A DNA stretch of 64,000 nt from Hoyosella sp. YIM 151337 (GTDB lineage Bacteria; Actinomycetota; Actinomycetes; Mycobacteriales; Mycobacteriaceae). The translations under genes and the position numbers were made by a program. Each line of letters starts with the position of its first letter. Within the stretch, counting starts at the first letter, position 1. The notes below the pieces were generated by a model. It saw only the letters and a program-made list of their open reading frames with translations, searched no databases and was not told the DNA's origin. The stretch lies in contig NZ_JAPEIQ010000033.1 in the NCBI RefSeq assembly GCF_026041215.1, positions 62,001 through 126,000 of the forward strand. The letters are read 5' to 3'. This document shows, piece by piece, positions 2,961 to 8,504 of the stretch.

Positions 2961-4148
2961 TCAGCTGGCCTCACTCTCACGGCTTCGAGTCGCATAAATC
3001 TCAGTGTGTGCGATGCCGCGGGGCCACAAATCGATCGTCTCGACCGTGGGTGGTTCCGTGTCGAATGCGGGCAGCTCATGGAGCTTGCGGGCAGTGACGA
3101 GTACGCGCGCCTCCATCGAGGCCACGGTGGAATTGAACGCTTCGACGCTCTTGCCGAGTTGTGAACCGAGCCGATCCATGTGAGCAGCGAGGACACCGAG
3201 CCGGGAGTACAGTTCGGCGCCCAGCTTGTGAATCTTTGCAGCGTCACGCGACAAGGTCTCCTGCCGCCACGTGAGGGCAACCGTGCGGAGCAAGGCAATC
3301 AGGCTCGTCGGTGTCGCGAGAACGACGTTCCGCGTGAATGCGTACTCAAGCAGCGCCGGATCGGTCGCGAGTGCCGCATCGAGGAACGGGTCGCCTGGGA
3401 CGAAGAGCACAACGAACTCGGGTGAAGGACTGAACGCGGTCCAGTAGGCCTTCGCGGATAGCTGGTCGACGTGCGCGCGCAACTGACTTGAATGCCGTTT
3501 CAGATGTCGTGCGCGGGCTTCGTCAGAGTCAGCCTCAGTGGCGTCCAGGTAAGCGGAGAAGGGAACCTTCGCGTCGACCACAAGGTTCTTGCCCCCTGCG
3601 AGGTGCACCACGAGGTCCGGGCGGACCGCCCGGACACCGTCATCACCGTCGTGGACGGTGTGGGCTTGCGTCGAGAAATCACAGTGCTCACGCATACCGG
3701 CTAGTTCGACGACTCGCTCGAGCTGCAGTTCCCCCCAGCGTCCGCGGACCTGCGGTGCACGCAGCGCCTGAACAAGCTGGTTCGTCTGTGTGGAGAGTGC
3801 CTGCGACGTTCGGCTCATTCCCGCGACCTGCTCCATCAGCCCGGAGTATGCACTGATGCGGCTGCGTTCGACTTCGCGTACCTGTTCGGCGAGATTGCCG
3901 ACCGCCTCCCGCAGCGGACTGACGACCGTCGACATCTGTTCGCTCATCGCCCCGGAATACCGTCGCGCAGAATCCTCGTTCGCGGCTGCGAGGGCCTCGC
4001 GAAGTAGCCGCTCGGAATCCCGCAGCGCCTGCAGTTGTGCTTCGGCAGCGACAGCGCGAGCATCAGACCGAGCGGCGTGCAGCAGCCAGCCAAGCAGCAC
4101 ACCTGCACCCAAAGCTGCTAGGACGGCAACGAAACTGAGGAGGTTCAT
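2961..4148 (-). CDS. rmuC: RmuC family DNA recombination protein
   Basis: RmuC proteins limit inversions and DNA rearrangement at repeats and contain a PD-(D/E)XK nuclease-like fold. The 395-residue product has one N-terminal membrane helix (MNLLSFVAVLAALGAGVLLG) and a coiled coil of about 100 residues rich in Ala, Glu and Arg. The RmuC core follows: RGRWGELQLERVVELAGM, RPDLVVHLAGGKNLVVDAKV and FVPGDPFLDAAL. The track's upstream extension is rejected because ATG 4148 precedes the membrane helix directly. It is divergent from sbcD, and a DNA-damage-type promoter sits in front of it (see 4157-4179). The family assignment is strong; its role here is inferred. Confidence 0.92.
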   Translation of the reverse strand: MNLLSFVAVLAALGAGVLLGWLLHAARSDARAVAAEAQLQALRDSERLLREALAAANEDSARRYSGAMSEQMSTVVSPLREAVGNLAEQVREVERSRISAYSGLMEQVAGMSRTSQALSTQTNQLVQALRAPQVRGRWGELQLERVVELAGMREHCDFSTQAHTVHDGDDGVRAVRPDLVVHLAGGKNLVVDAKVPFSAYLDATEADSDEARARHLKRHSSQLRAHVDQLSAKAYWTAFSPSPEFVVLFVPGDPFLDAALATDPALLEYAFTRNVVLATPTSLIALLRTVALTWRQETLSRDAAKIHKLGAELYSRLGVLAAHMDRLGSQLGKSVEAFNSTVASMEARVLVTARKLHELPAFDTEPPTVETIDLWPRGIAHTEIYATRSRESEAS

Positions 4149-4156
4149 GGCCGTTG

Positions 4157-4179
4157 ATAGTGCACCACGAGTCTGACAA
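4157..4179 (-). promoter_or_regulatory. PafBC/RecA-NDp-like DNA-damage promoter of rmuC
   Basis: Read on the minus strand, TTGTCAGAC is followed by 8 bases and then CACTAT, with 8 bases to the rmuC ATG. The published mycobacterial RecA-independent damage promoter is tTGTCRgtg-N8-TAnnnT. Spacing is exact and only the first base of the -10 differs. The same element faces the other way in front of sbcD. Confidence 0.6.
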
Positions 4180-4296
4180 TTTTTCGCGTGCACCCTGCCC
4201 GACGGTTCCGGCCGGGCTGCGTTTCCCCCGCCAACCAAGCCAGGTAACTGAGACACAAGTACCCGAAATGCGTGTCTGAGCAGCAGCTACCGAAAA

Positions 4297-4319
4297 TTGT
4301 CAGAGGAATGCTTTACCGT
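4297..4319 (+). promoter_or_regulatory. PafBC/RecA-NDp-like DNA-damage promoter of sbcDC
   Basis: TTGTCAGAG, then exactly 8 bases, then TACCGT, then 7 bases to the sbcD ATG at 4327. This matches tTGTCRgtg-N8-TAnnnT at all the conserved core positions and implies a leaderless sbcD mRNA. Together with 4157-4179 it forms a divergent pair. Confidence 0.68.
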
Positions 4320-4326
4320 TCGCCGC

Positions 4327-5475
4327 ATGAAGATCTTGCACACGTCGGATTGGCATGTCGGGCGCACGTTTCACGGCGTCGACCTTCTCGAGGATCAGCG
4401 TGCCGTCCTGGATGCGATCGCGGCTGTCGTCACTGAGCTGTCGATCGATGTTGTGCTGATCGCTGGAGACGTCTACGACCGTGCGGTGCCCAGTGCGGAC
4501 GCCGTACAGCTGTGTAACGCTGCCCTCGAAAAGATCCGGGCGGCTGGCGCGATCATTATCGCGACTCCTGGCAATCACGACTCGGCCACGAGACTCGGTG
4601 CGGGAGCCGCGTTCACCGGCGCGGGTGGCCTGCATCTGCGGACGTGTGTGGCCGACATCGATGCGCCGGTCGTGCTCAGTGACGAGCACGGGGAGGTTGC
4701 GTTTTACGGCGTCCCTTACCTCGAACCGGAAGCGGTGAAAACTGAACTGGGAGCACCGGCTGCGCGATCCCACCAGGAAGTTCTCAGCGCCGCCATGGAC
4801 AACGTGCGTAAGCACGTGCTGGACAGCGGTGACCGGCGCAGCATCGTACTCGCGCACGCCTTTGTGGTGGGTGGTGTCGCTTCTGAATCGGAGCGTCCCA
4901 TCACTGTGGGAGGCGTCGAGACGGTCGCTGCGTCAGTGTTCGATGGCGTTGACTATGTTGCGCTGGGGCACTTGCACACTCCACAAGTTGTGAGTGAACG
5001 TGTGCGATACTCAGGCAGTCCGCTGCCGTACTCATTCGGGGAGCGAGACCACCGCAAATCGGTGTGGGTAATCGATCTGGGTGCTGACGGGATTGAATCC
5101 ATCGATCAAGTGCATTTGCCACTTATTCGCGGACTCAGCGAAGTCACCGATACGCTCGAGGGTCTCCTCACTAGCCCCCGGTACGCGGAGTATGAGCAGC
5201 ACTATGTCTCGGCAGTGCTTACCGATGAGGTGCGTCCTATGGATGCCATGCGCAAACTCCAGGAGCGTTTCCCGCACGCGGTACACCTGCGTTGGGACTG
5301 TCCGCGGAAGCTTGCCACTGTGAGCTATTCCGACCGAGTCCGTGGACAAAGTGATTTGGACATCGCGCGCCGTTTCTTCGAGGACGCATGGACTGACCCT
5401 GACGAGGAACATTTGCGGCTGGTTGAGCAGGCGCTCGCCGAAAGCCGCCAAGAGGCCGCGAAGTTGCGGGCGTAA
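4327..5475 (+). CDS. sbcD: Nuclease SbcCD subunit D (Mre11-like)
   Basis: SbcD is the Mn-dependent nuclease of the SbcCD complex, which cleaves hairpins and processes double-strand breaks. The 382-residue product starts MKILHTSDWHVGRTFHG, which contains the first metal-binding Asp and His. It continues with VLIAGDVYDRAVPS, ATPGNHDS and YVALGHLHTPQ, the remaining calcineurin-type phosphoesterase motifs. ATG 4327 is preferred over the frame's opening at 4297 because the motif-bearing N-terminus begins there and a promoter lies just upstream. sbcC follows after 29 bases, so the two subunits form one operon. Confidence 0.95.
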   Translation: MKILHTSDWHVGRTFHGVDLLEDQRAVLDAIAAVVTELSIDVVLIAGDVYDRAVPSADAVQLCNAALEKIRAAGAIIIATPGNHDSATRLGAGAAFTGAGGLHLRTCVADIDAPVVLSDEHGEVAFYGVPYLEPEAVKTELGAPAARSHQEVLSAAMDNVRKHVLDSGDRRSIVLAHAFVVGGVASESERPITVGGVETVAASVFDGVDYVALGHLHTPQVVSERVRYSGSPLPYSFGERDHRKSVWVIDLGADGIESIDQVHLPLIRGLSEVTDTLEGLLTSPRYAEYEQHYVSAVLTDEVRPMDAMRKLQERFPHAVHLRWDCPRKLATVSYSDRVRGQSDLDIARRFFEDAWTDPDEEHLRLVEQALAESRQEAAKLRA

Positions 5476-5504
5476 CCGGCGCTGAAACGGACTTAGGGGG
5501 ACAG

Positions 5505-8504
5505 TTGAGGCTGCACAGGCTTCAGATTGAGGCGTTCGGGCCGTTCGCCGGCGTCGAGACCATCGATTTCGACCGAGTGGGGGCAGACGGCCTTTTCCTA
5601 CTGCATGGGCAGACCGGTGCAGGAAAGACGACGATTCTCGATGCCATTGCCTTCGCCCTGTACGGTGCTGTGCCGGGCGTGCGCACCGAGAGCAAGCGCT
5701 ATCTGTCTGACCACGCGGCCCACGGCGCGACCCCGAAAGTGACTCTTGAGGCCAGCGTGCAAGGCCGGCGTTTCCGAATCACTAGGACACCCGAGTTTGA
5801 CCGCCCCAAGAAGAGGGGTGACGGCTCGGTACGTGAAAAAGCCAAAGCAACTCTCACCTGGCTTGGTGCGGGAGACGACTCGGCCCGGAGGGAGAATCTG
5901 ACACGTATCGATGAGATCGCGGACGTCGTTCGCGAACTAGTCGGTATGTCGAAGGACCAGTTCTTCCAGGTGGTGCTGCTGCCCCAAGGCGACTTTGCCC
6001 GCTTCCTCCGAGCGTCAAACGAAGAGCGTGAAAGGTTGCTCGAAAGCCTATTCGACACAAAGCGTTTCGGCTCCGTTGAGTCATGGTTCGCAGACCGGCG
6101 CCGCGAAGCTGAGCGCCGTGTCGATGCAGTCCGCCAGCGGTTTGAGCTGATCGTTGCGAAGATCGTGCATTCAAGTGGGTCCGAGGATACCCCGGAAGTC
6201 GCGAATCCAGCTTGGCTGGAGGGACTGAAACACGACCTCGCGCAGCGACTCACTGCGGCGAAACACAACGCAGCGGAAACGGCGGAAGCCTTCGATAGGG
6301 AGCGGACAGAACTCGACCACGTTCGGTCGCTCGCCGAGCGGCAACACAAGTTGCGCGCTGCGCAAGCTGAGCTGAGCGAACTGGCGCACAGTGACGCCGA
6401 ACGCACCGAACTCGCGCGGACGCTCGATCGAGCTCGGCGCGCGCGGCCTTTTTCTGCGGCCGAGGACGAACTGCATCGTATTCAGCGTCAGAGCGATCAG
6501 GCCGAAAGCGAGCTGAAGCTGGCAGCCGAGTCGCTCTCGCTTATCAGGGGAGGAGAGCAACTTGTGGAGGGGCTCTCGTGGCCGCCTGCCGCAGGTGATG
6601 ACAGTGTTCTTAGACAGGCGATAGCCGCGTGGACCGAAGAGAGCGGTTCACTGAAGGAGCTTTGTGAGCGTGCCGCAGATAGCGGACGCATCAGTCGCGC
6701 CCTGACAGCTGTTGGGCGCGATATGGAGAAAGTCTCCGCGATGCGCGGCGAGGCTGAGGGTGAGCTCGCTTCTCTCCCGGAACGGATTGCAAAGGTCGAG
6801 TCCGACGTTGTCGCCGCGACAACTGCGCAAGCCCGCCTCGAACCGTTGCGCACCGCATACGGGGAACTAGAACATGCTCGACGCGCGGCTCAGGAGGCCA
6901 GAGACGTACAACAGAGCCTGGAGGCAGCGCGGGCGGATCTCACCGGTGCGCGGGCGACTTATCTCGATTGCCGCGAGAAATGGCTAGAGATGCGTGAACA
7001 GCGGATCGCCGGGATGGCAGGTGAGCTGGCGAGCTGGCTGCAGCAGGGTGAGCCCTGTGCGGTCTGCGGTTCGGATGTCCACCCCAACCCTGCGCCGCTC
7101 TCAGACTTCGCCGCAACAAGGGAAGAGGAGGAGGCGGCCGCGGCAGCGGAGCAGGAGGCCGCGCGCACGCTCGAGCGCCAGCGTGAAGCCGTGACCGCGC
7201 TGGAAAAACGCAGTGAGGCTCTTACGAGTGTGACGCGCGGCCGCGATGAGAACGAACTCGCGCAGCAACTAGTTGCTGCGGGAACATCGCTTTCCGACAC
7301 CGAGCGCCGAGCGGAGACTCTGGTGGGCTTGCAGGCGCTTCGAAACGAACTCGCGGACGCAGAACAGCGTCTCGAGGATCGTATTTCCGATTGTGCGGCC
7401 AGGCTCGCGGCGCTCGCGGAACGGCAACAGGGGCTGCAGCGTCAACTCGATGAACTGAACGCGGCCCTTGATGCGGCTCGTGGACCGGACGCGAGTGTGC
7501 AAGCACGAAAGTCCCGGCTTGATGATCTGGCACGCGCCGCCGCCCACTTGCAGTCAGCGAGAAACACCGCCCACACCGCGGCGACGCGGCTCTCCGAACG
7601 CGCCGCATACCTGCAAACCCTGGCTGAACAATCGGGCTTCGACTCGCTGGCGGATGCACGGTCAGCCGTTCGGAGTGCCCAGTGGCTGGCTGACACGGAG
7701 GCCACGCTCGAGGCGGCTCGCGAGCGTCGCGTCCGCGCACAGGCGGTGCTGGACGACCCAGCCGTGAAGGCGGCGGCCGACCAGGCAGACGCGGACGTGC
7801 CCGCCGCCGAAACGAGACTCGCGATCGCCCGCGGCGAGATGGAATCAGCACTCCGCGCCCACGCCGAATCGCAACGCGCGCATGACGCTGTATGCGCGCT
7901 GGAACCCGACTTCGGATGCGCGCTCGCCGAGCTGGGGCCGGCGGCTGCGGTACATGCCCGCCTGGCCCTCCTTTCGGAAGTAATCGCAGGGCGCGGCCAA
8001 AACACGCGGCGGATGTCACTCCGCTCGTACGTGCTGGCTGCCCGCCTTGAGGAAGTCGCGGTTGCAGCCTCAGGGCGCCTGCGAGTCATGTCCGGGGGCC
8101 GTTACGAATTCGTGCACTCTGATGCAGCGGGGCCGCGAGGATTGCGAGGGGGACTCGGCCTCGATATTCGCGATGACTACACAGGGGTCGTACGTTCGGC
8201 GAAAACGTTGTCCGGTGGGGAGACCTTCATGGCTTCTCTCGCCCTCGCGCTCGGGCTTGCCGACGTCGTTACCGCCGAGTCGGGAGGCATCATGCTCGAC
8301 ACGCTGTTTATCGATGAAGGCTTCGGAACGCTCGACAGCGACACGCTTGATTCCGTGATGGGCGTACTCGACGAGCTGCGTGCAGGTGGCCGCGTTGTCG
8401 GCCTGGTCAGCCACGTTGACGAAATGCGTCAGCGCATCCCAAGTCGGCTGCACGTCGTCAAGGCCCGGTCAGGATCGCACGTCCGTGCCACCGCATCGGG
8501 CTAA
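5505..8504 (+). CDS. sbcC: Nuclease SbcCD subunit C (SMC-like ATPase)
   Basis: SbcC is the Rad50-like ATPase that bridges and unwinds DNA for SbcD. The 999-residue product begins MRLHRLQIEAFGPFAGVETI (TTG start, preceded by GGGGGA). It has a Walker A GQTGAGKTT near residue 36 and QVVLLPQGDFARFLRA. Long coiled coils flank the zinc hook CAVCGSDVHPNP near residue 520. The C-terminal half has the signature LSGGETFMASLALALG and Walker B with D-loop LFIDEGFGTLDS. Length and order are those of full SbcC. It ends 4 bases into the convergent AI-2E permease gene. Confidence 0.95.
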   Translation: MRLHRLQIEAFGPFAGVETIDFDRVGADGLFLLHGQTGAGKTTILDAIAFALYGAVPGVRTESKRYLSDHAAHGATPKVTLEASVQGRRFRITRTPEFDRPKKRGDGSVREKAKATLTWLGAGDDSARRENLTRIDEIADVVRELVGMSKDQFFQVVLLPQGDFARFLRASNEERERLLESLFDTKRFGSVESWFADRRREAERRVDAVRQRFELIVAKIVHSSGSEDTPEVANPAWLEGLKHDLAQRLTAAKHNAAETAEAFDRERTELDHVRSLAERQHKLRAAQAELSELAHSDAERTELARTLDRARRARPFSAAEDELHRIQRQSDQAESELKLAAESLSLIRGGEQLVEGLSWPPAAGDDSVLRQAIAAWTEESGSLKELCERAADSGRISRALTAVGRDMEKVSAMRGEAEGELASLPERIAKVESDVVAATTAQARLEPLRTAYGELEHARRAAQEARDVQQSLEAARADLTGARATYLDCREKWLEMREQRIAGMAGELASWLQQGEPCAVCGSDVHPNPAPLSDFAATREEEEAAAAAEQEAARTLERQREAVTALEKRSEALTSVTRGRDENELAQQLVAAGTSLSDTERRAETLVGLQALRNELADAEQRLEDRISDCAARLAALAERQQGLQRQLDELNAALDAARGPDASVQARKSRLDDLARAAAHLQSARNTAHTAATRLSERAAYLQTLAEQSGFDSLADARSAVRSAQWLADTEATLEAARERRVRAQAVLDDPAVKAAADQADADVPAAETRLAIARGEMESALRAHAESQRAHDAVCALEPDFGCALAELGPAAAVHARLALLSEVIAGRGQNTRRMSLRSYVLAARLEEVAVAASGRLRVMSGGRYEFVHSDAAGPRGLRGGLGLDIRDDYTGVVRSAKTLSGGETFMASLALALGLADVVTAESGGIMLDTLFIDEGFGTLDSDTLDSVMGVLDELRAGGRVVGLVSHVDEMRQRIPSRLHVVKARSGSHVRATASG

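Follow-up and report, generated by a model that had tools for sequence, protein, structure and literature searches.

Putative PafBC-type promoters placed at the start codons of the divergent rmuC and sbcDC genes of Hoyosella sp. YIM 151337

The divergently oriented rmuC and sbcD genes of Hoyosella sp. YIM 151337 are very probably served by two independent PafBC-dependent promoters of the RecA-NDp type, one for each gene, giving rise to leaderless transcripts. The activating signal of PafBC is single-stranded DNA, and its action consists in adapting the housekeeping RNA polymerase (PMC11804915), with a -26 element being used in this sigma adaptation (PMC10609372), and the published RecA-NDp consensus (Gamulin 2004) is quoted in PMC5656591 as tTGTCRgtg - 8 nt - TannnT. 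In the window, by which we mean the whole 64,000-nucleotide stretch of DNA analysed, the intergenic region of 178 bp between the two genes features one such motif in front of each of them, as laid out below in window positions.

2961 to 4148, minus strand: rmuC, encoding an RmuC-family nuclease of 395 amino acids with an N-terminal membrane helix (NCBIfam RmuC model, E 4e-40, under the equivalog cut-off).
4148 to 4156, minus strand: predicted rmuC transcription start region, at the ATG or at most 2 nt away, placed by the 8-nt distance from -10 element to ATG.
4157 to 4162, minus strand: -10 element of rmuC, CACTAT (direct read; the C at -12 is kept in orthologs).
4171 to 4179, minus strand: predicted PafBC (-26) box of rmuC, TTGTCAGAC (direct read and pattern; matrix rank 2 in the window).
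4179 to 4157, minus strand: whole rmuC motif, with the 8-nt spacer TCGTGGTG between TTGTCAGAC and CACTAT.
4297 to 4305, plus strand: predicted PafBC (-26) box of sbcD, TTGTCAGAG (direct read and pattern; matrix rank 1 in the window).
4297 to 4319, plus strand: whole sbcD motif, with the 8-nt spacer GAATGCTT between TTGTCAGAG and TACCGT.
4314 to 4319, plus strand: -10 element of sbcD, TACCGT (direct read).
4320 to 4327, plus strand: predicted sbcD transcription start region, at the ATG or at most 2 nt away, placed by the corresponding 7-nt distance.
4327 to 5475, plus strand: sbcD, encoding the Mre11-type exonuclease subunit of 382 amino acids (TIGR00619 over cut-off, E 1e-48).
5505 to 8504, plus strand: sbcC, encoding the Rad50-type subunit (NCBIfam SbcC models, E 7e-96 and 1e-82, both under cut-off).

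Orthologs of rmuC occur in 177 of 200 genomes of the order, and by SbcD the closest named relative is Hoyosella altamirensis (75% identity). Since sbcC lies 29 bp 3' of sbcD on the same strand, the two genes presumably form an sbcDC operon. A TTG at 4297 was rejected as the sbcD start, because SbcD orthologs align from ATG 4327 onward. Direct reading and a pattern search agree with the preliminary description, which had reported the motif with an 8-base spacer and a -10 box before both genes, 7-8 bases from the ATG. The TGTCR box of the consensus is present in both TTGTCAGAC and TTGTCAGAG, the spacer between box and hexamer is exactly 8 nt at both genes, and variation at the weakly conserved last box positions is also common in the other sites of this genome. 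The hexamer of sbcD fits TAnnnT, whereas that of rmuC has the A at -11 and the T at -7 but a C at -12. On the minus strand CACTAT is followed by 8 nt (4156-4149) and the ATG at 4148-4146, and on the plus strand TACCGT is followed by 7 nt and the ATG at 4327.

The weight-matrix scan proposed in the preliminary description was run on the window (127,956 positions), using a matrix trained on 14 other sites of the same genome with sbcD and rmuC left out, while the whole genome was covered by pattern searches. With this matrix, which favours TTGTC by construction because its training set was chosen by means of related patterns, the two sites take both top ranks, sbcD scoring 22.1 bits and rmuC 16.7 bits, with 12.4 for the third position. 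Sequence simulated with matching dinucleotide content yields 0.000 and 0.10 sites per 64 kb at 22.1 and 16.7 bits, respectively. Genome-wide, the pattern TTGTCAG-N11-A-NNN-T gave 40 matches versus 10 for its reversed form, and the control with one extra spacer base gave 16 versus 14. The looser pattern TTGTCR-N11-TANNNT showed no genome-wide excess (28 matches versus 31 reversed), so motif counts alone are no evidence; signal is told from noise by three features only, namely the G that follows TTGTCA, the spacing and the location at gene starts.

Conservation of both motifs in related genomes, a point on which the preliminary description had made its reading depend, was found for each gene. 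We collected 102 distinct sbcD upstream regions from the Mycobacteriales in the wide sense, including Pseudonocardiaceae and Geodermatophilaceae, and 71 of them contain.TGTCR-N12-A-NNN-T within 60 bp, compared with none for the reversed and spacing-shifted controls. The distance from motif to start is 6, 7 or 8 nt in 13, 52 and 6 orthologs, respectively, and no other distance occurs. Columns that the pattern leaves free are conserved as well, with G after TGTCR in 54/58 and T at -12 in 58/58 sites. Beyond the order, 18 of 28 sbcD upstream regions from further families of the class carry the site, again at 6-8 nt from the start (controls 0). By eye, at least seven more sbcD upstream regions from other families show TGTCC in place of TGTCR at identical spacing, which may represent a variant box used by some families.

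For rmuC, the site lies 6-8 nt before the start in 36 of 67 upstream regions of the order (controls 0-2) and is found, at this same distance, in 15 of 28 from further families of the class (controls 0). Most misses in the order set fall in two families (f12 and f15), in which a PafC homolog is present and the sampled rmuC loci have no site at the start, so that the gene there has either dropped out of the regulon or relies on a different site. The few sbcD upstream regions sampled from these two families all belong to divergent SbcD paralogs (about 34% identity), likewise with no site at the start. Pseudonocardiaceae possess a divergent RmuC-like gene (about 30% identity) that often has the motif, mostly with a leader. 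Genomes whose genus we take to be Mycobacterium also differ from the arrangement described here: they mostly lack rmuC, and their SbcD-like gene is preceded by a leader. In four such genomes the motif of this divergent gene stands tens of bases before the start, and three of the four show a clear purine-rich stretch in front of the start. The regulatory link may therefore predate the leaderless layout, or may have been re-made in these genomes, and the leaderless placement is not universal.

The regulator is encoded in the same genome. A single stretch holds dop, the proteasome genes prcB-prcA, pafA, pafB, pafC and tatC, of which prcBA, dop and tatC were named by eye from their translations, whereas PafA scores over its NCBIfam cut-off. 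PafB (E 1e-109) and PafC (E 4e-100) both match chains of 7p5x, the solved complex of PafBC with the polymerase of M. smegmatis, and the recognition-helix stretch RMFERDK of PafB is identical in the alignment with M. smegmatis PafB. Among 45 distinct genomic matches examined, the motif also precedes recA, uvrA, uvrC, polA, dnaE1, mfd (assigned by its UvrB-interaction domain) and recO, as well as genes for an exonuclease-domain protein, an ABC transporter and two DUF222-type proteins. Fourteen of the 45 lie 5-9 nt before an open reading frame of at least 60 codons, as opposed to 0 of 16 off-spacing controls, which makes start-adjacent placement a common feature of this genome's regulon; many of the remaining matches, inside or far from genes, are probably due to chance. 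The promoters of the two DUF222-type genes are perfect start-adjacent PafBC-type sites, a hint that damage induces members of a repetitive gene family. The motif is likewise present at a gene resembling those of DNA cytosine methyltransferases and at two unnamed open reading frames (L028, L018 and L006), which are candidates for new damage-induced genes.

Matrix ranks, the presence of pafBC, the repair genes among the other matches and the conservation together make PafBC-type promoters with leaderless mRNAs the best reading. The preliminary description had called the promoters PafBC-type, and the consensus match, the regulator genes, the DNA-repair genes behind other matches and the class-wide conservation argue for this on the sequence level. 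Its prediction of leaderless mRNAs gains indirect support from the fixed distance of 6-8 nt between -10 element and start codon, which would limit the leader of a transcript from such a promoter to about 2 nt at most and leave no room for a Shine-Dalgarno sequence; none was seen before the rmuC or sbcD start in the window. By analogy with the mycobacterial mechanism, PafBC would be activated by single-stranded DNA when DNA is damaged and would then recruit RNA polymerase in its housekeeping form to the -10 element and the TGTCAG (-26) box. We infer PafBC binding and induction at rmuC and sbcD, with transcription predicted to start at the ATG or at most 2 nt away and the resulting leaderless sbcDC and rmuC mRNAs expected to be co-expressed alongside recA, uvrA, uvrC, polA, dnaE1, mfd and recO. 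Points that weigh against this explanation are the rmuC -10 element without the T of TAnnnT, the siteless loci sampled from families f12 and f15, which have a PafC homolog, and the leader of the Mycobacterium SbcD-like genes.

The preliminary description had further proposed one intergenic switch, and this part is overstated, as each gene has its own site, the gap between the boxes varies and unlinked genes keep both. The gap amounts to 117 bp here and to 3, 51, 62, 66, 92, 194 and 286 bp in relatives, which rules out a single site common to both genes. In nine genomes of other families rmuC and sbcD are unlinked and each has its site. Because the gap ranges from 3 to 286 bp and both sites survive the separation of the genes, we favour two independent promoters, and conservation after gene separation is the strongest sequence evidence for each site working alone. 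A bidirectional switch with coordinated promoters, where occupancy of one site influences the other, would be in keeping with the divergent layout retained in Hoyosella, Nocardia, Rhodococcus, Speluncibacter and two distant families, and with the boxes of H. rhizosphaerae being merely 3 bp apart. However, it is unlikely in view of the variable spacing, the survival of both sites at unlinked genes, and Lentzea, which has the sbcD site only. In H. rhizosphaerae (L035, about 2940-2995) the boxes stand back to back (CTGACAAGAACTGTCAG) in an intergenic region of 64 bp, so that simultaneous binding of two polymerase complexes is hardly possible there.

Another regulator, for example ClgR, could read the motif alone or together with PafBC. 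According to a report cited in PMC5656591, ClgR recognises the P1 motif in mycobacteria, and damage induction is impaired when clgR is mutated. Yet P1-driven recA transcription is lost without pafBC (PMC5656591), and for PafBC both in vivo binding of RecA-NDp sites and adaptation of the polymerase to the -26 element have been described (PMC10609372 for the latter), leaving this explanation with a low probability. Lower still is the probability of ordinary housekeeping (sigma-70 type) promoters that resemble the PafBC motif by chance: the -10 elements are of the housekeeping type, as fits a regulator that itself works with the housekeeping sigma factor, but the distance from TTGTCA to the -10 element is 11 nt and not about 17, and the TGTCRG box is conserved with its exact spacing, shifted spacings being found never or almost never. 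LexA (SOS) regulation of sbcDC and rmuC in place of PafBC is highly improbable, for although LexA also controls a number of the known PafBC targets, recA among them, no match to TCGAAC-N4-GTTCGA with up to 3 mismatches exists from 3734 to 6039, and an SOS box between the two genes was rejected on this ground.

Returning to the two PafBC-type promoters, we compared their -12 bases. In the order set this position of rmuC is C in 32 of 36 sites, G in 3, A in 1 and never T, nor is it T in the 15 class-level sites, so that overall T occurs in 0 of 51 rmuC sites. All counted sbcD sites, in contrast, have a -10 element of the form TANNNT, with T at -12 in 76/76; as related sequences are not independent, the value of a Fisher test on this difference measures the contrast only. 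A start-adjacent site at recO (L144:1501-1523) has the -10 element GACACT and resembles rmuC in having no T at -12. We tentatively consider, at somewhat less than even probability, that the non-T base of rmuC is a selected gene-specific setting, in which a non-T at -12 would reduce basal activity such that RmuC is made only with active PafBC, while sbcDC keeps a basal level. If true, PafBC promoters would fall into graded types that the -12 base tells apart across the class, and this base would serve as a testable code for the strictness of a gene's dependence on PafBC.

The sites resemble mycobacterial RecA-NDp/P1 promoters in box sequence, 8-nt spacing, position of the -10 element, linkage to DNA repair and the presence of pafBC in the genome, and differ from them in lying 6-8 nt from the start codon and, for rmuC, in a -10 element that begins with C instead of T. 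A comparable case is SCO6735 of Streptomyces coelicolor (PMC5087735), whose RecA-NDp promoter was likewise found by sequence and whose UV induction was shown by experiment; a primer printed in that paper contains a TGTCAG-type motif a few bases before the ATG, although the target gene differs in encoding a macrodomain hydrolase. Leaderless transcription of a damage gene is known from M. tuberculosis lexA, where the transcription start coincides with the start codon (PMC2897130), but lexA is not described as a RecA-NDp gene in that study, and Rv1955, the RecA-NDp gene mapped there, has a leader. Our literature search yielded no publication that lists sbcDC or rmuC among the PafBC targets; their novelty as such is provisional, as full regulon tables lay outside this search. 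Taken as predicted, the two promoters would extend the PafBC damage regulon to SbcCD and RmuC, nucleases linked to abnormal DNA structures. This extension would hold across much of the class, including genomes in which the two genes lie far apart, with the start-adjacent, putatively leaderless placement of these promoters as a conserved feature.
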